A stretch of 50,742 bases of DNA, taken from assembly GCA_012728895.1 (NCBI GenBank), contig JAAYEG010000006.1, positions 1 to 50,742 on the forward strand. The letters run 5' to 3'. Numbering within the stretch: the stretch's first letter is position 1; each line of letters opens with the position of its first letter. Under the pieces are notes generated by a model. That model was not told where the DNA came from and did not search any database. It saw only the letters and a program-made list of their open reading frames with translations. Source of the stretch: Methanospirillum sp. (lineage in GTDB: Archaea > Halobacteriota > Methanomicrobia > Methanomicrobiales > Methanospirillaceae). The position numbers and the translations under genes are program-made. Positions 6,905-50,597 of the stretch are shown here, piece after piece.

Positions 6905-7672
6905 ATGGGCGCCGGCTATGCCATGCGGAACTGCGTGAAGCCGTGCGGGTCGCTCGACACCCAGAACACCCGGCTTTTGGACTTCGTCGACGTCACGAAC
7001 GACTCGGAAATGCCGATCATCCACGACACCCTCCTGAGTCCGCCGGCCGAGATCATGATCTGGGAGGGCCGGCCCCGGCTCTATGCGGGGAAGTTCGTCC
7101 ACCTCTACACGGAGGATTATCGATTTGAACAACTCTGGCGCCGGCCGGAGTTTTATTTACCCAAGATCCAGGCGTTCGCCGGGATATTCTCGCCCGACTT
7201 CTCCCTCTTCCGCGACTGGAATATCCACGTCCAGCGGAATAACGTCTACCGTTCGCGCCTCCTCGGCGCCTACTGGCAAGCGAACGGGATCCCCGTGATC
7301 CCGATCGTCTCGTGGGCCGGGCCCAAGACGTATTCGTTCTGTTTCGACGGGATCCCCGAGGGGTCCATGGTCGCGGTCTCGACCGTCGGCGTCCACCGCG
7401 AGCGCGAGGCGCGGGCGATGTTCAAGGCGGGGCTCAAGGAGATGCTCGACCGGATCCACCCGCGGGCCGTCATATGCTACGGGAGAATCGAGAAGCTCCT
7501 CGGGGAGGTGCCGGAGCACTTCTACCCCTACAAGCCCGACCTCGTCGCGAAGGTCTCGCCCCTCTACGAATATGTCCGGAAGGACGCCCGGCTCATCCCC
7601 CAGGACGGGCCCCTCGTGCACCTGGAGACGCCGGACGGGCCCCGGCGGGAGCTCGTGGAGGCGCTCGCGTGA
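6905..7672 (+). CDS. DUF4417-type protein
   Basis: A 255-residue protein starting immediately after the previous stop. It follows the DUF4417 pattern, a family frequent in mobile elements and phages: FSPDFSLFRDWN, then GIPVIPIVSWAG, FCFDGIPEGSMVAVSTVGV, and AVICYGRIEKLLG. The conserved W, D and G positions suggest an enzyme-like alpha/beta fold, but no activity is established for the family as far as I know. It has no membrane segment and overlaps the next gene by four bases. Confidence 0.75.
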   Translation: MGAGYAMRNCVKPCGSLDTQNTRLLDFVDVTNDSEMPIIHDTLLSPPAEIMIWEGRPRLYAGKFVHLYTEDYRFEQLWRRPEFYLPKIQAFAGIFSPDFSLFRDWNIHVQRNNVYRSRLLGAYWQANGIPVIPIVSWAGPKTYSFCFDGIPEGSMVAVSTVGVHREREARAMFKAGLKEMLDRIHPRAVICYGRIEKLLGEVPEHFYPYKPDLVAKVSPLYEYVRKDARLIPQDGPLVHLETPDGPRRELVEALA

Positions 7673-39525: not shown

Positions 39526-41637
39526 ATGGTGACAAAATACGTTTTCGCGGCGCCCGACTCGTCCGACGCAGACCGGGCCGCGGCATCCGCCGGGTGCCTC
39601 TTCTCGGGGTCGTGGACCACGGCCCAGAAGGCGATCATTTCGTCGAACACGGCCTCGGAGATCGAGTTCCGCGCCGGCACCTATGCCTTCTCCGGGGCCC
39701 TGACGGTCGGCAACAACACGAATTTCCACGGGCCCGCGGGGTCGATCCCCGTCCCGGCCCGGAAGCGGACCCTCGTCGACCACGACCCGCGGACCATGGC
39801 CGTCTTCCGGTCTCTGCCGAGCCACCAGTACTCGACCGAGACCATGATCGGCGGGGCCCCGGGCGGGGTCGAGAGCCCGACCAAGCCGTCGAGTGTGAAG
39901 GCCACGATCACGACGGCGAGCGCGGGCTCGAACGTCCAGATCGCGGACGTCTACATGCTCGGGTACATAACCCTCAACCTCCCAAGCGCACGGAGCTGTA
40001 CGGTGTTCCGGGTCGTGATCTCGAACTACCTGGGGAAGGCGAGCGACTACCCGAACGGCTCCTGGTGCAACATGGGATTTGAAGCGACCGGCGCGTTCTG
40101 GTTGAAGAGCTCGTGCTCGAATATCAAATTCGATACGTGCATCAGTCAGTTCAGCTCTCACCACGGCTTTAACATCCAATTCGGGAGCGGCACAAGCACG
40201 GGTATAACGCTCAAAGACTGCCGGGCGCTCCATTCGGGGTGCGGCATGATCCGGTCGGGCGCGGATAAGAGGACCGCCCTGGCGCTCCTGAACGAGTCCC
40301 TCGCAGTCCCGGCCCTCAAGTTCCGCCAGGGGCGCGGGTATCTCTGTTGGGCCGTGGGGTTCGACTTGAACGAGCACGGCACGGTCGACGACCTTCTCGC
40401 GGAGGACTGTTACGCCTACGATTCGTGGAAGGTCGGGTTTTACCAGGAACCGGGGCGGATCAACAAAAACGTCCGGCTCGTCCGGTGCGTGTCTGAGGAG
40501 GCGGGGAAGCGGGCCACGATCACGATCGGGACGGGGACGGGCGCGGTCGTCCGCATGATCCCGCGGGAGAGCGAGGCGTCCAACTTCTACCTCCAGAACG
40601 CGGTCCTCTATGACTGCATAAGCCGCGGGGCCCTGAAGGCCGGGTACGACCTCTTCCCCCAGTCCGATTATACCCAGGTCGTCGACGGGGTCGCGTACCG
40701 GATGGCGCTCGTCGGGTGTAAGGACTGTGGATCTGGGTATGGTGTCGCGTGCGGCCCGTGCAACACGGGGAGAGTCCTGATCAAAAATTGCACGTTCGCG
40801 AATTACGGGCATTATGCCGTGAACCTCGCCGGTAACGGGCCGTACACGGTCAAGGGCATCCGGATCAAGGTGCCGGCCGAACGCGCCGGGCGCCCGCCGC
40901 TTCGCATCGGGCGGTATTGCCGGGTGAATAGCGCCATGAGCCTCTCCGACGGGCGCATGGGGAACTTCACGAGCGGATTTAAGGAGTGCAGAGACGTCGC
41001 CGTCACCGTGGACGGGGTCGTGGAGGGGCTCAATGCGGGCGTGGCGGCCTACCTCGGCGGGCCGTACCAACCCAAGAGCCCGGGCGCCGTCACCCTCTCG
41101 CGGGCCACGACCCCGGTCTTCTCCCAGGCGGAGCTCGACGCGCTCTGTGTCGCGGCCACGCCGACCGATCCCGGGGATCCCGTCGAGCCGACGGACCCCG
41201 GGGATCCCGTCGAGCCGACGGACCCCGAGGTGCCGGGAGAGCCCGGGACGGCCCCGGTCGCGGCCTTCACGGGCGCCCCGACCTCGGGGCTCGCGCCCCT
41301 CACGGTCCAGTTCACGGACCAGACCGACGGGGCCGAGTCGTGGACGTGGTCGTTCGGTGACGGGAAGACCTCGACCATCCAGAACCCGACGCACACCTAC
41401 ACGGTCCCCGGGACGTACCCGGTATCGTTGAACGTCGGAAAGGGCGGGATGTACGACGGGGAGCATAAGAGCGGATATATCCGCGTCTTCTCGGCCGGCG
41501 GGACCGACGTGGTCCCGGTCAACCCAGGAAACCGCGTCTGGCTCCTCTCCGACCCGAAGGTCGTCCAGGCATACGACGGTGAGGGGGCGATCGCGGCGAC
41601 CATCACGCTCCGGATCGACGAGGGCCAGGCCCCATGA
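39526..41637 (+). CDS. Beta-helix spike with PKD domain
   Basis: A 703-residue protein one base after the previous stop. Residues 15-520 look like a beta-helix spike (IEFRAGTYAFSGALTVGNNT, NIKFDTCISQFSSHHGFNI, GRVLIKNCTFANYG). A Pro/Thr/Asp linker encoded by a 27-base tandem repeat follows. Residues 575-655 are a PKD domain (APVAAFTGAPTSGLAPLTVQ, WTWSFGDGKTST, TYPVSLNV). The last 40 residues are a short tail. PKD domains often bind glycans or S-layer proteins. It may share a role with the spike at 33756. Confidence 0.75.
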   Translation: MVTKYVFAAPDSSDADRAAASAGCLFSGSWTTAQKAIISSNTASEIEFRAGTYAFSGALTVGNNTNFHGPAGSIPVPARKRTLVDHDPRTMAVFRSLPSHQYSTETMIGGAPGGVESPTKPSSVKATITTASAGSNVQIADVYMLGYITLNLPSARSCTVFRVVISNYLGKASDYPNGSWCNMGFEATGAFWLKSSCSNIKFDTCISQFSSHHGFNIQFGSGTSTGITLKDCRALHSGCGMIRSGADKRTALALLNESLAVPALKFRQGRGYLCWAVGFDLNEHGTVDDLLAEDCYAYDSWKVGFYQEPGRINKNVRLVRCVSEEAGKRATITIGTGTGAVVRMIPRESEASNFYLQNAVLYDCISRGALKAGYDLFPQSDYTQVVDGVAYRMALVGCKDCGSGYGVACGPCNTGRVLIKNCTFANYGHYAVNLAGNGPYTVKGIRIKVPAERAGRPPLRIGRYCRVNSAMSLSDGRMGNFTSGFKECRDVAVTVDGVVEGLNAGVAAYLGGPYQPKSPGAVTLSRATTPVFSQAELDALCVAATPTDPGDPVEPTDPGDPVEPTDPEVPGEPGTAPVAAFTGAPTSGLAPLTVQFTDQTDGAESWTWSFGDGKTSTIQNPTHTYTVPGTYPVSLNVGKGGMYDGEHKSGYIRVFSAGGTDVVPVNPGNRVWLLSDPKVVQAYDGEGAIAATITLRIDEGQAP
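41167..41220 (+). repeat. 27-base tandem repeat in the spike linker
   Basis: Two copies, at 41167-41193 and 41194-41220, differing at one base, encode DPGDPVEPT twice. A third, shortened unit (DPEVPGEP) follows. Such linkers easily change length and space the PKD domain from the spike. Confidence 0.85.
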
Positions 41638-44048
41638 GCACGCGGATCCTCTGTGTCGGGGACGCCATCACGCGCGGCACCAACCGGGACGGGTCGGGCG
41701 CGCTCCCCTCGACCATCACCTCCTACTCCTGGCGCCGGTGGCTCTGGACGGCCCTCCGGGAGAAGGGGCGGGACGTGGACTTCGTCGGGCCGCACACATG
41801 GCCCGATTTTGAAAATGTCGAGTTCGACCAGGGTAATTGCGCCTTCGGCGGGAACACGACGATCGCCTGGATGCTCGACAAGGTCCGGGCCCTCCGCGTG
41901 GCCGACGCCGCCGCGAAGGCGAAGGGCGAGGCCACGATCGCCCCCCAGGTCGCGCTCGTCCTCATCGGCACAGAGGACGCCTATAAACAGACGACGATCG
42001 CAGACCGGAAGGCCGGGATCCTCTCGCTCGTCACGGAGCTCCGCGGGTGGTACGCGGACCACTACGCGACGGGCGCGCTCCAGGTCGTTCTTTCAACCCT
42101 CCCGCCGACGACCGACGGCGAGAACGGGGCATACCGGGACCGGACCCAGATCCAGCCGTTCAACCTCGCGCTCGCCGAGCTCGTCACGACCCTCACGAAG
42201 CCCGAGTCCCAGGTGCTCCTCGTCGACCCCCACGACGGATGGACGGCGGCCATGAGCGACAGCACCGGGAGGAAGCCGAACGAGGCCGGGGACAAGCACA
42301 TTTCCTCACAATTCTTCGCGGCCGTCGAGCCCCTTCTCGGCGGGGTGGGCCCCGTGATCCCCACACCCGACCCGGAGACCGGGGAGGAGCCGAATTATTC
42401 GGTCGGGTCGATCCGGGCCGAGTTCGTGACCGCCCCGGCCTCGGTTGTCGCGGGCGCCGCGGTCACGTTCACGGATAGGAGTGTCGCCGACCGGAAGAAG
42501 ATGCACCGGCGGGTCGTGATCATCGACGGGATCGACCCCGGATACGTCCGGGACATGATCAAGTACGTCCCTGACGATATATTCAAGCTCACTATCGACC
42601 CGACGACCCCGGTCGAGGGCGTGGACTGGGCCATGCAGGAGCACGCCACGGAACGGGGCCCGATCCTCATCCCCTACCCCCTGACGAACGACACGGTCCT
42701 CGTCTCCGACCGGGCGCACGCCGGCGCCGACTGGACCGGGGTCGGGGCGATCTCGTGCTATCCCCCCGTGCTCGGAAAGGTCTCGCTTCCCCTCATCGCG
42801 GACGAGGTCGCGAAGGGCCTGTACCCCGAGCACGGCCAGACCCTCCTCCACGAATTGCTCCACACGATCGAGGGGCTGGAGAGCTCGGACGATCTGTATT
42901 TCTCCGAGGGCTTCCTCGCCTGGCTGGAGGCGCACCCGTCCGACCTCGCCACGGCCTTCCTCCGAAACCCGGCGGCGATGGAGACGACGTACGAGCTCCT
43001 CAGCTTCTTTTATTATTACCTTATCGAGACGTACCGCACGACCCCGGAGCTCTGGAGCCGGCAGGTAACGTATTTCTGGAGCTTCGGCGACGGCGCGACC
43101 TCGACCGAACGCTCGCCCGTCCACACGTACGCGGCGGCCGGCGCCTACCCCGTCCACCTGACGGTCACGACCCGGGAGGGGTTCGACACGTCCGACCTCG
43201 TGACGCTCACGGTCGCGGCCCCCACGGCGCCCCCGGTCGCGGCCTTCCGGGCGAGCGCGTCGGCGGGGGAGGCCCCGTTCGGCGTCCAATTCTATGACGA
43301 GAGCACGGGGGGCACCCCCGACACCTGGCGGTACGAGTTCGGGGACGGCGCCGAGAGCTCCGCGGCCACCCGGAACCCGACCCACGTCTACACGTCCCCG
43401 GGGGTCTACTCGCCCCGGCTCACGGTCACGAACGGCGCGGGGACGTCCACGGTCGAGCACGAGCACGCGATCACGGTCCTCCGGCCCCCCGCAGCCCCGC
43501 CGGCGATCCACGAGCTCGAATACGCCGGCTTCGTCGACCTCCTGGAGATGGTCGCCGAGATGTTCGGGTATATCGAGCTCCGGGACGAGGGCGGGAAGGC
43601 CCTCGCGCCCCGCATCCCGACGGCCGGCCGGATCACGGCGACCCTGGAGGAGGACACCCTTAACCTCGTGCTCCAGGTGCGGATCCTCGGCGCGGACCTC
43701 GCGGCGCTCCCTCAGAAGATAAGCGGCGGGGAGTTCTACGAGAACGCGGTCGGTGGGGAGAGGCTCGCCCGGGCCATCTTCGAGGATATGCCGATCTGGC
43801 CCGTCCTCAATGCGTCCGTCGACGCTCTCGACATCACGATCCCGATCTCGGTCGTGGCGGAGTCCGTTCTGCCGCGGATCACGAACTTGAGCCTCCAGAA
43901 CGTGACCGGGGTCACGGGCGCGGCCCTGGTGGCCTCGTTTCGCGTCCAGAACCCTCCACCGGGCGCCGTGGTGGTGCTCTCTGAGTATTCGCCGGTGGTG
44001 CCGGTCGGGGGCCAGGCCCGGCTCTCCCTGAAGGTCGTTCGCTCCTGA
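41634..44048 (+). CDS. Pseudo-SGNH protein with metalloprotease-like insert in PKD
   Basis: An 804-residue virion protein overlapping the previous stop. Residues 1-245 have an SGNH/GDSL hydrolase layout (ILCVGDAITRG, FGGNTTIAWM, VLIGTEDAY, AGDKHIS), but the catalytic Ser of GDS is Ala11 and the usual Asn of GTND is Glu. A PKD domain starts near 258 (AEFVTAPASVVAGAAVTF), is interrupted at about 285-477 by a domain with HELLHTIEG (406-414) and EGFLAWLEA, and resumes with VTYFWSFGDGATSTE. A second PKD follows (540-620), then about 180 residues of unknown beta structure. It is probably a distal tail adhesin that may cut cell-surface protein. Confidence 0.75.
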   Translation: MSTRILCVGDAITRGTNRDGSGALPSTITSYSWRRWLWTALREKGRDVDFVGPHTWPDFENVEFDQGNCAFGGNTTIAWMLDKVRALRVADAAAKAKGEATIAPQVALVLIGTEDAYKQTTIADRKAGILSLVTELRGWYADHYATGALQVVLSTLPPTTDGENGAYRDRTQIQPFNLALAELVTTLTKPESQVLLVDPHDGWTAAMSDSTGRKPNEAGDKHISSQFFAAVEPLLGGVGPVIPTPDPETGEEPNYSVGSIRAEFVTAPASVVAGAAVTFTDRSVADRKKMHRRVVIIDGIDPGYVRDMIKYVPDDIFKLTIDPTTPVEGVDWAMQEHATERGPILIPYPLTNDTVLVSDRAHAGADWTGVGAISCYPPVLGKVSLPLIADEVAKGLYPEHGQTLLHELLHTIEGLESSDDLYFSEGFLAWLEAHPSDLATAFLRNPAAMETTYELLSFFYYYLIETYRTTPELWSRQVTYFWSFGDGATSTERSPVHTYAAAGAYPVHLTVTTREGFDTSDLVTLTVAAPTAPPVAAFRASASAGEAPFGVQFYDESTGGTPDTWRYEFGDGAESSAATRNPTHVYTSPGVYSPRLTVTNGAGTSTVEHEHAITVLRPPAAPPAIHELEYAGFVDLLEMVAEMFGYIELRDEGGKALAPRIPTAGRITATLEEDTLNLVLQVRILGADLAALPQKISGGEFYENAVGGERLARAIFEDMPIWPVLNASVDALDITIPISVVAESVLPRITNLSLQNVTGVTGAALVASFRVQNPPPGAVVVLSEYSPVVPVGGQARLSLKVVRS

Positions 44049-46629: not shown

Positions 46630-47153
46630 CCTCCATCCTCCTGCCGACCGGGTGGGGCGAGGTGAAGACCGCCATGATCGCCGACGCCGCGGCCGGGTTC
46701 ACCCCGGCACAAATCGCGAAGCGCTCCGGGTGGGGCGTGAGGACGGTGTTCTCCGTCCTCCGCGCGGCCGGCGTGGAGCAACCGAACACGACGTGGTCCG
46801 ACGCGGAGAAGGCAGCGATCCGGCCGGCGACCTCGAAGAGGGAGGCCATCGCCCTCTACCGGGCGGCCATGGGCCCCGAGGCCCGGCGTACGGACATGGC
46901 GATCCGGAGCCGGTGGATGCGGGGCGGGCCCGGCCGTGATCCGACAGGACGTGGTCGCGTGACCCCGTGGTCCGACGCGGAGAAGGCCGCGATCCGGCCG
47001 GCGACATCGAAGGAGGAGGCCATCACCCTCTACCGGGCGCGGTTCCCCGACTCGAACCGGACGCCCTCTGCCATACGGAAGATGTACAACAAGGCGCGGC
47101 GCGATGGGTCGGCGTTCCACGGGCTCGCGAAGGTGCAGGAGGGGTTGGTGTGA
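46626..47153 (+). CDS. HTH/Myb-like protein with duplicated Myb half
   Basis: A 175-residue paralog. After the HTH (TPAQIAKRSGWGVRTVFSVL) it has two Myb-like units, each starting WSDAEKAAIRPATSK, separated by 58 codons. The DNA of the units is 67/72 identical, so the duplication is recent. The second unit is preceded by GTGACCCCG, which looks like a former start codon, suggesting fusion of two adjacent genes. A lengthened DNA-binding site is the expected effect. Confidence 0.75.
   Translation: MTSILLPTGWGEVKTAMIADAAAGFTPAQIAKRSGWGVRTVFSVLRAAGVEQPNTTWSDAEKAAIRPATSKREAIALYRAAMGPEARRTDMAIRSRWMRGGPGRDPTGRGRVTPWSDAEKAAIRPATSKEEAITLYRARFPDSNRTPSAIRKMYNKARRDGSAFHGLAKVQEGLV
46794..46865 (+). repeat. 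72-base direct repeat, copy 1
   Basis: Encodes WSDAEKAAIRPATSKREAIA then LYRA. It differs from the copy at 46968-47039 by five bases. Confidence 0.85.
46968..47039 (+). repeat. 72-base direct repeat, copy 2
   Basis: Encodes WSDAEKAAIRPATSKEEAIT then LYRA, 174 bases after copy 1. Confidence 0.85.
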
Positions 47154-48034
47154 ACGTCCGCCTCGTCGACATCGACAGCCGGATCCCAAACCTCGCCCTG
47201 ATGCAGGTCAGCGCCTACCACAAGGCGCAGGGCGACGAGGTCGGCTTCGATGTGAATGACCCAGATCGGGTTTACGTTAGCTGTATATTCTCGAAGAACG
47301 CGGCGACGGCGCGCGGGGTGGCGACGATGTTCCCCGGCGCCGACGTGACGCTCGGGGGCTCGGGGCTCGGCTATTCGTGGCTCCCCGAGGCCATGCAGAA
47401 GATCAGGCCCGATTACGACCTCTACCCGTCCGAATATTCGCTCGGGTTCACCTCGCGGGGCTGCATCCGGAACTGCGAGTTCTGCATCGTCCGGGCGAAG
47501 GAAGGACGGTTCCGGCGCTGGCAACACCCGCGCGAGTTCCACGACGAGCGCTTCGACACGATCGCCATGCTCGACAACAACATACTCGCCGATAAAAAGT
47601 GGTTCTTCGAGGTCTCCGACTGGTGCCTCGCGCACCGGCTGAAGGTCGATTTTATGCAGGGGCTTGATGTCCGGCTCCTCGACGAGGAGATCGCGGAACG
47701 GCTCAAGGCGCTCAGGTGGGCCGCCAATATCCGCTTTGCCTTCGACCACGTCGACGAGGAGCCCGCTGTGTTGCAGGGGATCCGGTTGCTCGACGCAGCC
47801 GGGATCAATCTGAGGAACGACGTTTCCTTCTTCGTCCTGGCCGGCTTCAAGGGCTCGACGTTCGAGGACGCGCTCTATCGGTGCCGGAGGCTGCGCGAGG
47901 CGGGCACGAACGCCTACGTGATGCGGTATACCCGGTCGTCGAAGCTGAACGCCCTGGCGCGGTGGGCGAACGCGCGCCAACTCTTCTGGACGATGGACTT
48001 TGCCGACTACACCCGCAAGGCGGTGGCGCCGTGA
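47150..48034 (+). CDS. Radical SAM protein
   Basis: A 294-residue enzyme from GTG. CIRNCEFC at residues 105-112 is the CxxxCxxC ligand set for the 4Fe-4S cluster that cleaves S-adenosylmethionine. The first 80 residues (VRLVDIDSRIPNLALMQVSA, VTLGGSGLG) resemble a B12-binding-like Rossmann domain but lack the DxHxxG motif. Downstream, DFMQGLDVRLLDEEIAERL and FFVLAGFKGSTFEDAL fit the TIM barrel. Substrate unknown; possibilities include modification of nucleic acid or a small molecule. The DNA-directed neighbours favour the former. Confidence 0.85.
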   Translation: MNVRLVDIDSRIPNLALMQVSAYHKAQGDEVGFDVNDPDRVYVSCIFSKNAATARGVATMFPGADVTLGGSGLGYSWLPEAMQKIRPDYDLYPSEYSLGFTSRGCIRNCEFCIVRAKEGRFRRWQHPREFHDERFDTIAMLDNNILADKKWFFEVSDWCLAHRLKVDFMQGLDVRLLDEEIAERLKALRWAANIRFAFDHVDEEPAVLQGIRLLDAAGINLRNDVSFFVLAGFKGSTFEDALYRCRRLREAGTNAYVMRYTRSSKLNALARWANARQLFWTMDFADYTRKAVAP

Positions 48035-48504
48035 GCACGGCCGCGCGCCGGCTCGGGTTCAGCTTCGCCCCGCCGAAGAAGGCGAAAGCGGGGAAGCAGC
48101 CGCACCGGCGCGTGGTCGAGGACGGCTATACGTTCGGTAGCGAAACCGAGCGCGCGTTCTACCGGGTGCTTAAACTCTGGCGCGCGGCCGGCCGGATCAC
48201 GGCGATCGAGCCGCACCCCGTCTTCACCTTCCAGGCGAAGTTCACGAACGCCCGCGGCATCAGGCGGGCCGCGCGGAAGTACACGGCGGACTTCCGGGTA
48301 ACGCTCGCGGACGGCTCGGAGCGCGTCTTCGAGGTGAAGGGCGCGAAGAAAACGAAGGGGGTCGTCGGCCCGTTCTGGACGCTGGATTACAAGATCCGGC
48401 GGGACGCCGTCGAGCTGCAGTACGGGATCGCCATCTGGACGGTCTACCCGGACGGCGGGCAATGGATCGACGCGGACACGAAGAAGCCGGTGGTGTGGAC
48501 GTGA
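48031..48504 (+). CDS. DUF1064-like nuclease, divergent copy
   Basis: A 157-residue protein, GTG in a GTGA overlap. It shares order and spacing with the protein at 768: PKKAKAGKQPHRRVVEDG, a helix, HPVFTFQAKF, YTADFRVTLADGSERVFEVKG. The D of ADF and the EVK of FEVKG match the PD-(D/E)XK core. Like the left copy it is followed by a methyltransferase remnant. It may process DNA or assist recombination. Confidence 0.7.
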   Translation: MSTAARRLGFSFAPPKKAKAGKQPHRRVVEDGYTFGSETERAFYRVLKLWRAAGRITAIEPHPVFTFQAKFTNARGIRRAARKYTADFRVTLADGSERVFEVKGAKKTKGVVGPFWTLDYKIRRDAVELQYGIAIWTVYPDGGQWIDADTKKPVVWT

Positions 48505-48653: not shown

Positions 48654-48695
48654 ATGAGACGATCAACCGCCAATGGTGGTGAGGTGCAAGCATGA
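48654..48695 (+). CDS. 13-residue leader peptide, doubtful
   Basis: A frame MRRSTANGGEVQA ending in an ATGA overlap with the ParB/MT-A70 gene. It contains the ribosome binding site GGTGAGGTG for that gene. It may be a coupling leader or chance. Confidence 0.25.
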   Translation: MRRSTANGGEVQA

Positions 48696-49924
48696 TTGGA
48701 ACCCAGGCCGCACCGTCACCGGTCGGGGTTTTTGGAACCCTGCCTATATCATCCATTCGGATCAAGCCGGGCCGCCGGCCACTGAATGAAACAAAAGTCG
48801 GTGAGATTGCCGAGTCGATCCCGGTCGTCGGTCTGATCAACCCGATCACGGTCTCGGCCGACAACGTCCTGATCGCTGGGCTCCATCGGGTCGAGGCGTT
48901 CAACCGGCTCGGTCTCAGCGAGATCCCCGCGATCGTCTTCAGCTACGACGAGATACAGGCGAAGCTCGCCGAAGTCCTCGAGAACTCCGCCCGCTCCGAC
49001 CTCTCTGAACTCGCGAAAGGGCAGGCGCTCCTCGAGGCGAAGACGCTCTACGAGGCGATGCACCCCGAAACGAAACGGGGCGCCGCCGGGGCCGCCGCGA
49101 GATGGGATGCGACTGGCGAAACGCCAGTTGCATTTACAACAGTGGCGGCAAAAGAGGCGGGGAAATCGGACAGTGCTATATTTCGATCGATCCAGATCGC
49201 GAAGGCGATCGCACCCGACGTCCAGGAGGCGATCGCCGGCACCGACCTCGCCGACTCGAAAAAAGACCTGCTCAACCTCGCCCGGATCAAAGACCCAGAG
49301 AAACAGCGCGAGGTCGCCCGGAAGGTGCTCGCGGGAGAGGCGAAGGACGTCCACACGGCCTACCTCAATGTGAACCGCGCCGAGAAGCTCGAGGCGCTCG
49401 CCGAACCGGCGCCCATGAGCACCGCGGCGGGCTCCTATAATGTGATCCTCGCCGATCCCCCGTGGCGGTATGAGTTTTCAGAGACGTCCGGTCGCAAGGT
49501 CGAGAACCACTATCCGACGATGGATCTCGCCGACATCGCGGCACTGGAGATCCCGGCCGACGAGACCGCGATCCTCTTCCTATGGACAACCGCTCCGAAG
49601 CTCGAGGAGGGGCTAGACATCCTACGGGCGTGGGGCTTCACGTACAAGACCTGCGCGATCTGGGACAAACTGAAGAAAGGGCTCGGCTACTACTTCCGCG
49701 TTCGTCACGAGATCCTGCTCGTCGGGACGCGGGGCGACTTCCCGACGCCGGCCGCCGAGACCCGCCCCGACTCGGTCTTCTCAATACCGAAGGGCGAGCA
49801 CTCGGCGAAGCCCGAGATCGTCCACGAAATGATCGAGGCCATGTACCCGAAGGCCCGCCGGCTCGAGGTCTTCGCACGGGCGGCCCGGCCCGGGTGGGAG
49901 GTGTGGGGCAATGAGGTCTCATAA
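48692..49924 (+). CDS. ParB-like/MT-A70 adenine methyltransferase fusion
   Basis: A 410-residue protein. Residues 15-105 are a ParB/Srx-like domain (GRRPLNETKVGEIAESIP, NVLIAGLHRVEAFNRLG). Residues 105-235 are a helical middle with KSDSAIFRSIQIAKAI, like the ParB HTH. Residues 240-405 are an MT-A70 N6-adenine methyltransferase: DPPW at 255-258, HYPTMDLADIAAL, ETAILFLWTTAPKLEEG and LLVGTRGDFP. The DNA-recognition part probably targets the methylase. Viral use could be protection from restriction. The start is ATG overlapping a tiny upstream frame, with GGTGAGGTG before it. Confidence 0.85.
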   Translation: MIGTQAAPSPVGVFGTLPISSIRIKPGRRPLNETKVGEIAESIPVVGLINPITVSADNVLIAGLHRVEAFNRLGLSEIPAIVFSYDEIQAKLAEVLENSARSDLSELAKGQALLEAKTLYEAMHPETKRGAAGAAARWDATGETPVAFTTVAAKEAGKSDSAIFRSIQIAKAIAPDVQEAIAGTDLADSKKDLLNLARIKDPEKQREVARKVLAGEAKDVHTAYLNVNRAEKLEALAEPAPMSTAAGSYNVILADPPWRYEFSETSGRKVENHYPTMDLADIAALEIPADETAILFLWTTAPKLEEGLDILRAWGFTYKTCAIWDKLKKGLGYYFRVRHEILLVGTRGDFPTPAAETRPDSVFSIPKGEHSAKPEIVHEMIEAMYPKARRLEVFARAARPGWEVWGNEVS

Positions 49925-50531
49925 CTTCGACGCGTGCCTCGAGTATTCGCACCGGGCATCGGTCGAAGGCATATTCGATGCCGCGTACCGCGAGTGGTTC
50001 CCCGACCTGCAACGGATCGAACTCGCCGAAGACATGGCCCGGCAGCGGAGAGGGATCGATAAGGTGCTCCACTTCGCAGCGGGCAACTCGTGGACGGTCG
50101 ATGAGAAGATGCGGAAGGAAGATTATGGGGACATTCTGATCGAGACAATCTCTGTTTTCCAGAATAACCAGAAGGTGAAAAAAGGATGGATCTACACCTG
50201 CCAGTGTGACTTTATCGTCTACGGGATCGAGCCAACGCGGAAAGCGTACCTCCTCCCTGTGCCCCTCCTGAAGAAGGCGTGGTTGAAGAACCATCATGTG
50301 TGGGAGCAGACCCATCGATCGGTCACTGCCAGGAACGAGAGGAACGGATCCCGGTGGCAGACGATCTCGACGGCGGTCCCGATCCGCGATCTCCTCGACG
50401 CGATCCGCCTCGAAATGATCAGAAACTTCCACGAAAAACCAGAATCGGGCGGGCAGATGTCGCTTTTCGACTTCAAAAAGCCGGCACTTTACCAGGACCA
50501 CGAGTATTCTTTCGAGGAGATCGCCGCATGA
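49911..50531 (+). CDS. PD-(D/E)XK nuclease-like protein with PIP box
   Basis: A 206-residue protein overlapping the methylase by 14 bases. GIDKVLHF at 48-55 and TVDEKMR at 62-68 give the D and DxK/ExK of a PD-(D/E)XK core, followed by IYTCQCDFIVYG. The C-terminus has QMSLFDFKK at 182-190, close to archaeal PCNA-interacting (PIP) boxes of the Q-x-x-LFDF type. It is likely a nuclease recruited to the host sliding clamp during replication or repair. The nuclease call comes from motifs, the clamp contact is inference. Confidence 0.65.
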   Translation: MRSHNFDACLEYSHRASVEGIFDAAYREWFPDLQRIELAEDMARQRRGIDKVLHFAAGNSWTVDEKMRKEDYGDILIETISVFQNNQKVKKGWIYTCQCDFIVYGIEPTRKAYLLPVPLLKKAWLKNHHVWEQTHRSVTARNERNGSRWQTISTAVPIRDLLDAIRLEMIRNFHEKPESGGQMSLFDFKKPALYQDHEYSFEEIAA

Positions 50532-50537
50532 GCCCCG

Positions 50538-50597
50538 AAACACAGTACCATTTTGGTACTAAAACACCCCCAACACAGTACTATTTTAGTACTAAAA
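50538..50597. promoter_or_regulatory. Tandem operator of two inverted repeats
   Basis: AGTACCA-TTT-TGGTACT at 50544-50560 and AGTACTA-TTT-TAGTACT at 50577-50593 are perfect 7-3-7 inverted repeats 33 bases apart, about three helical turns. Each is preceded by ACAC and followed by AAAA, so the flanks are also repeated. They share CAGTAC with the palindromes at 1630 and 1828. They lie just before the ATG at 50601 and could bind cooperating repressor dimers. Confidence 0.65.

Follow-up and report, generated by a model that had tools for sequence, protein, structure and literature searches.

The window, the whole stretch of DNA analysed here, is 50,742 bases long and makes up the entire contig C40 of a 2.28-Mb assembly in 80 contigs. 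The contig carries terminase, portal, tape-measure and tail genes and is, by this gene content, a tailed virus. Close to its end lie two overlapping genes on the forward strand. The upstream gene (48692–49924) encodes a methyltransferase of 410 aa with the DPPW motif, which combines a ParB_N domain (PF02195, E 8.5e-7) with an MT-A70 domain (PF05063, E 5e-26) and matches the PADLOC family MTase_II (E 1.5e-49). The downstream gene (49911–50531), confirmed as the open reading frame described in an earlier note on this DNA, encodes the putative nuclease of 206 aa and overlaps the methylase stop by 14 nt. Directly behind the nuclease stop, inside the start of the next open reading frame, is a pair of direct repeats of 31 nt each, 33 nt apart (50534–50597), and each contains the palindrome AGTACnATTTTnGTACT. 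Shuffled sequence is expected to give none, and neither the rest of the window nor the 218 other loci compared contain a copy; the repeats resemble either paired operator sites or a coding repeat. Between the structural genes and the gene pair lies a gene for a Radical SAM protein (47147–48031; phrog_9298, E 1.3e-62), and a second nuclease-like gene (48031–48501), with a DUF1064 match (E 6.1e-14) and a weak TnsA-like match, is located upstream of the pair. The window also encodes two large PKD-domain proteins downstream of the tail genes (39526–44045), possibly host-binding, and a DUF4417 protein (6905–7669, E 6.2e-53), a domain listed among those fused to ParB-CTPase folds in phages (PMC12704722).

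The assembly is archaeal on the evidence of its genes, because it encodes PCNA, a FEN1-type protein with GQRTLDQWF at its extreme C-terminus and a B-family polymerase with the C-terminus RTNLSQWGF. Relatives of the terminase, with 44–58% identity, are present in four genomes of the same archaeal family, including one that consists of a single contig. Binning and these terminase relatives, not any peptide motif, are the grounds on which the virus is provisionally assigned to an archaeon. The archaeal proviruses with related terminases have neither a nuclease nor a methylase match in the stretches examined.

At the thresholds used, the nuclease protein has no family match in Pfam, NCBIfam or PADLOC, and its sole match among the PHROGs is at E 0.2. 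Of the 28 members of alignment A4 none matches a PHROG at 0.01, and Pfam gives a single marginal match. The AlphaFold model built on the same alignment has a pLDDT of 85.6 and its order stops near residue 170, so that a predicted PD-(D/E)XK core (residues 1–170, 49911–50420) is followed by a disordered C-terminal tail (residues 171–206, 50421–50528, pLDDT ~50), which is absent or short in most relatives. The closest solved fold is that of the homing endonuclease I-Ssp6803I (PDB 2ost), with a Foldseek E of 1.1e-3 and a VIA Z of 8.3 over 120 residues; Foldseek alone gives no match between the model and the PDB at E ≤ 0.001. The next VIA matches are SPARDA nucleases, Hjc resolvases (Z 6.7) and restriction enzymes, at Z 5–7, a range in which many PD-(D/E)XK proteins match and in which, as for anything below Z 8, the matches would be weak alone. 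Among predicted viral structures the top fold matches are phage proteins, mostly unnamed. The catalytic-type residues D...(D/E)xK of the superfamily are present as well. In 68 non-redundant members (67 from viral contigs and the window protein), the residue at D50 (codon 50058–50060) is D in 68/68 and E78 is E in 68/68, while K66 and D74 are each kept in 67/68. Position 64, the first residue of D64-E65-K66 (codons 50100–50108), is acidic in 61/68 (D in 58, E in 3) and Q in 6. The residue pattern is that of a PD-(D/E)XK nuclease, from which we infer the activity, and model and sequence together make it very probable that the protein is a nuclease. The PD-(D/E)XK-like core proposed in the earlier note is thus borne out by the fold matches and by the conserved D50 and K66.

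Single-sequence searches with the nuclease in viral contigs, genome contigs, phages (at 1e-5) and 148 genomes near its own yielded no relatives, and the one lead from a single-sequence search was a Novosphingobium plasmid. In 392 genomes, the single sequence found its own genome and 20 weak fragmentary matches (E 0.004–0.09), which were treated as chance, and the A4 profile found its own genome only. Two queries of INPHARED returned no member of the nuclease family; the methylase was found in 62 INPHARED records at E 1e-20. Starting from the Novosphingobium plasmid copy, the viral and genome collections yielded further members. The copies in genomes amount to 25 loci, 24 of them alphaproteobacterial and one in an Omnitrophota MAG.

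In viral contigs the nuclease and the methylase are tightly coupled. MT-A70 lies directly upstream on the same strand in all 34 contigs found with the nuclease as bait, and the distance between its stop and the start of the nuclease domain is −10 to +21 nt. With methylase-found contigs added, the pairing is 82/82, a figure that includes contigs reached through the methylase, and one pair is at +87. Hand measurement of 17 pairs, taken from the window, 15 viral contigs and the Omnitrophota MAG, gave gaps between −1 and −29 nt for 16 of them and +3 nt for the remaining one; DPPW is present in all of their methylases except one cut by its contig end. The neighbouring methylase of the earlier note is confirmed by the ParB_N and MT-A70 matches, its tight link to the nuclease is supported by this coupling across viruses, and it is very likely that methylase and nuclease form a functional pair. 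No report of the pair was found in the literature searched, which covered few subscription papers.

The methylase appears to have more than one kind of partner. With the window methylase alone as bait, MT-A70 was found in 14 of 16 contigs and the nuclease in 10 of 16; with the bait A5 the nuclease was found in 60 of 80, a proportion biased upward by the construction of A5 only from nuclease-paired methylases. Of the remaining 20 of these 80 contigs, nine have another small protein, of a different kind, in the slot behind MT-A70. This family (L159, L165, L187, L189, L192, L193, L194, L197 and L212) has a conserved E..ExKxK, and Pfam gave no match for the four members scanned. The model of this protein, which is of low confidence (pLDDT 71), gives VIA matches mainly to PD-(D/E)XK proteins, with Z up to 5.3 and all below 8, and nothing significant by Foldseek alone. 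The 20 also include one contig with a sub-threshold MjaI-type match and one in which an HNH gene follows after 54 nt. A restriction-like module would be expected to look this way, with a methylase whose nuclease partner can be exchanged.

The nuclease also occurs alone. In 24 alphaproteobacterial genomes it has no adjacent MT-A70, and in 23 of the 24 there is no MT-A70 gene at all, implying that the nuclease is not lethal there without an MT-A70 methylase. These solo copies would be evidence against a simple restriction system, the search in those genomes covering MT-A70 only. On a tree of 73 sequences, from which ten divergent viral nucleases were left out and in which 14 of the 24 solo loci were included, the 14 solo rows require two changes and are nested inside paired rows, an arrangement consistent with capture at a later time and perhaps with a new role. 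Several of the Sphingomonadales solo copies (L034–L037, L040–L058) have a short conserved upstream protein with a motif around LIDRLDxxDGDPD, and L035 and L042 have possible N-terminal extensions with QPSFDF and QPQLPF.

The disordered tail of the window protein contains QMSLFDF (residues 182–188, 50454–50474), a clamp-binding-like motif by sequence match, which begins 25 residues from the C-terminus, near the end of the protein as first described. The canonical PIP has the form Q-x-x-[LMIV]-x-x-aromatic-aromatic (PMC6881253), with aromatics at positions 7 and 8, and position 8 of QMSLFDFK is K. The wider PCNA motif variant that lacks one aromatic is matched by Q182, L185 and F188, and 43% of the confirmed PCNA motifs collected in one study are without one aromatic (PMC6881253). 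QMSLF (residues 182–186) equally matches the general clamp motif of bacteria, QxxLF (PMC12309361), so that by its letters QMSLFDF fits the bacterial pentamer as well as the PCNA motif; according to a review, the archaeal polymerase PIP QLTLF resembles the E. coli motif (PMC3504372). The close fit to the archaeal PIP consensus claimed in the earlier note does not hold, since the second aromatic is missing, unlike in GQRTLDQWF of the host FEN1. For the same two reasons, and because QxxLF is matched, the motif is not the best evidence of an archaeal host, as had been suggested; the host PCNA and the related terminases are better evidence. Use of the motif as host evidence was rejected, the bacterial pentamer fitting equally well and cross-domain binding having been reported (PMC4549789). 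By chance, 1–3% of random tails of 36 residues contain the relaxed PIP Q..[LIMV]..[FYW], which also occurs at 6 places in a set of 31 window ORFs chosen by eye, and the pentamer Q[LM][SD]L[FL], a pattern set after the letters QMSLF had been seen, occurs in 0–0.02% of random tails and once in the 31 ORFs.

Similar motifs recur in the tails of some relatives. The recurrence test was fixed after QLDLL (L065) and QFYLF (L098) had been seen and before further scans, which added QLLLF in L199, QLSLDL in L209 and QLSIF in L152, whose tail ends QLSIFN. Tails of at least 20 aa are present in 15 of the 68 members, and five of the 15 (L025, on the same contig as L065; L098; L199; L209; and the window) carry Q[LMFI]xL[FLM] or its hexamer form. 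For this loose pattern the shuffles have a mean of 0.13 and 0/4000 reach five, and the cores have no match in 11,177 residues. The strict consensus is found in 2/15 long tails, with 3/4000 shuffles as high. The published QxxLF is found in 3/39 tails against 0.18 expected (1/3000 shuffles as high), with three matches in cores and 0/305 in other C-termini, and QLxLF alone in 1/39 tails (28/3000 shuffles as high). The wider pentamer has one match in the cores and 3/305 in control C-termini. Motif-like tails outside the preset rules (L060, L130, L066, L204, L213 and L153) were left uncounted. The six motif-bearing rows require six changes on the tree, that is, they lie on separate branches, and the motifs therefore look separately gained (or lost). 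Only the window motif among the motif-bearing tails has an aromatic at PIP position 7, which would suit PCNA in this one case. A tail of this kind is lacking in most relatives, among them the closest neighbours on the tree. By the widest pattern, 62 of the 68 members are without the motif, as are all 26 loci scanned in genomes and plasmids. Absence of the motif from homologs, which the earlier note regarded as refuting clamp binding, is thus true of most of the family, but it does not refute docking here because the few motif-bearing homologs seem to have gained their motifs on separate branches. The proposed tethering to the clamp is left with a plausible docking peptide that recurs independently in relatives, but without the close PIP-consensus fit. 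Docking of the nuclease on a clamp through its tail is judged likely from these sequences.

What sequence and prediction show is the fold, the conservation of residues of catalytic type and, in many viruses, a tight coupling of the two genes. The proposed explanation is that the window protein supplies the nuclease of a viral, restriction-like cassette of two genes and docks on host PCNA through its tail, a reading with about an even chance of being correct as a whole. The MT-A70 methyltransferase and the PD-(D/E)XK nuclease, encoded in that order in overlapping frames, would act as one viral cassette. From family and gene order, the methylase would mark the viral DNA and the nuclease would cut unmarked DNA, either the host chromosome or a competing element. 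The disordered QMSLFDF tail, apparently added in this member from an archaeal virus, would dock the nuclease on host PCNA, as the recurrence of the motif suggests, and so might concentrate cleavage on replicating DNA. The restriction-like logic of the pair is somewhat favoured because MT-A70 lies directly upstream in all 34 nuclease-baited viral contigs. A phage MT-A70 enzyme has been described as GATC-specific (PMC7556043); one reported to methylate 16S rRNA (PMC10810198) counts against a reading as DNA restriction.

Three other explanations bear on parts of this proposal. The protein could serve the virus in recombination or repair, for instance as a resolvase-like nuclease, which only shares an operon with the methylase and is brought to replication forks by its tail. 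The fold matches include Hjc resolvases (Z 6.7), the nuclease is found without MT-A70 in 23 of 24 genomes, and in archaea EndoQ is an example of a repair nuclease that uses a PIP box at its C-terminus (PMC4858679). However, a methylase directly upstream in 34/34 is more than a free-standing repair enzyme would predict, and this virus already has a second nuclease-like gene (DUF1064) upstream, so that the repair role appears rather unlikely. It is less probable still that the downstream protein is not a working nuclease and serves, like PNB-2, as a DNA- or RNA-binding specificity partner of MT-A70. Such a role would agree with the constant coupling, and a phage MT-A70 enzyme does need an adjacent-gene partner for its choice of substrate (PMC10810198). 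PNB-2, however, is a winged-helix protein encoded upstream (PMC10810198), whereas the protein considered here keeps its nuclease active-site residues, as do the solo copies in alignment A4.

The remaining alternative concerns the tail only: QMSLFDF may be a chance match in a fast-evolving segment that binds no clamp. The absence of the motif in 62/68 members and 26/26 genome and plasmid loci, the departure from the canonical PIP, the frequency of the relaxed PIP by chance and the post hoc choice of pattern all speak for this view. The motif tails of L199, L209 and L152, on the other hand, surfaced after the recurrence test was fixed, few or no shuffles equal the counts (0/4000 for the loose pattern, 1/3000 for QxxLF), and QxxLF is found in 0/305 other C-termini; a chance origin is less likely than not. 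A broader and more tentative reading, also less likely than not, is that of a widespread, unannotated viral restriction-like cassette in which MT-A70 is coupled translationally to an exchangeable nuclease, a clamp-docking peptide has been gained several times in different viruses, and cleavage is aimed at replicating DNA by tethering and methylation status, with the beta clamp as the target in bacteria and PCNA in archaea.

Several known systems share parts of this arrangement. I-Ssp6803I (2ost), the best solved match, has the same fold; the identity is 12–14%, and the window gene is coupled to a methylase with no intron setting seen. Type II restriction-modification systems share the adjacent genes for a methyltransferase and a PD-(D/E)XK-type nuclease, and the window methylase matches MTase_II. 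In contrast, the present putative pair is virus-borne, and its nuclease is conserved across distant contigs and has solo copies without MT-A70. The archaeal mismatch endonuclease NucS/EndoMS, which is stimulated by the clamp (PMC8228993), has in common a nuclease tied to the clamp. The family profile has no match to PDB sequences at E ≤ 1, and NucS is absent among the fold matches listed. To our knowledge, NucS/EndoMS is not linked to MT-A70. The MT-A70/PNB-2 system of Shiga phages shares a viral MT-A70 with an adjacent-gene partner and differs in that the partner is a winged-helix protein encoded upstream and the substrate is 16S rRNA (PMC10810198). Fusions of a ParB-CTPase fold with MT-A70, reported to be enriched in archaea, have the same domain composition as the partner gene, and the available part of that source mentions no downstream nuclease (PMC12704722). 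Transposases of IS1634 and other elements share short C-terminal clamp motifs on enzymes of mobile elements; these motifs are said to arise repeatedly, and beta and PCNA motifs to cross-bind (PMC4549789). Those are transposases with measured binding, whereas the window has a methylase-paired nuclease with a motif recognized from its letters. ParB and MT-A70 fusions and clamp motifs on mobile-element enzymes are thus already known, whereas their combination appears to be new. The proposal would give a role to a nuclease family unnamed in the family libraries used, whose members occur in viral contigs and, in one case, in a virus from an archaeal assembly. If the proposal is true, viral methylase-nuclease pairs would be steered by the sliding clamp of the host, linking restriction-like conflict to the replication fork.
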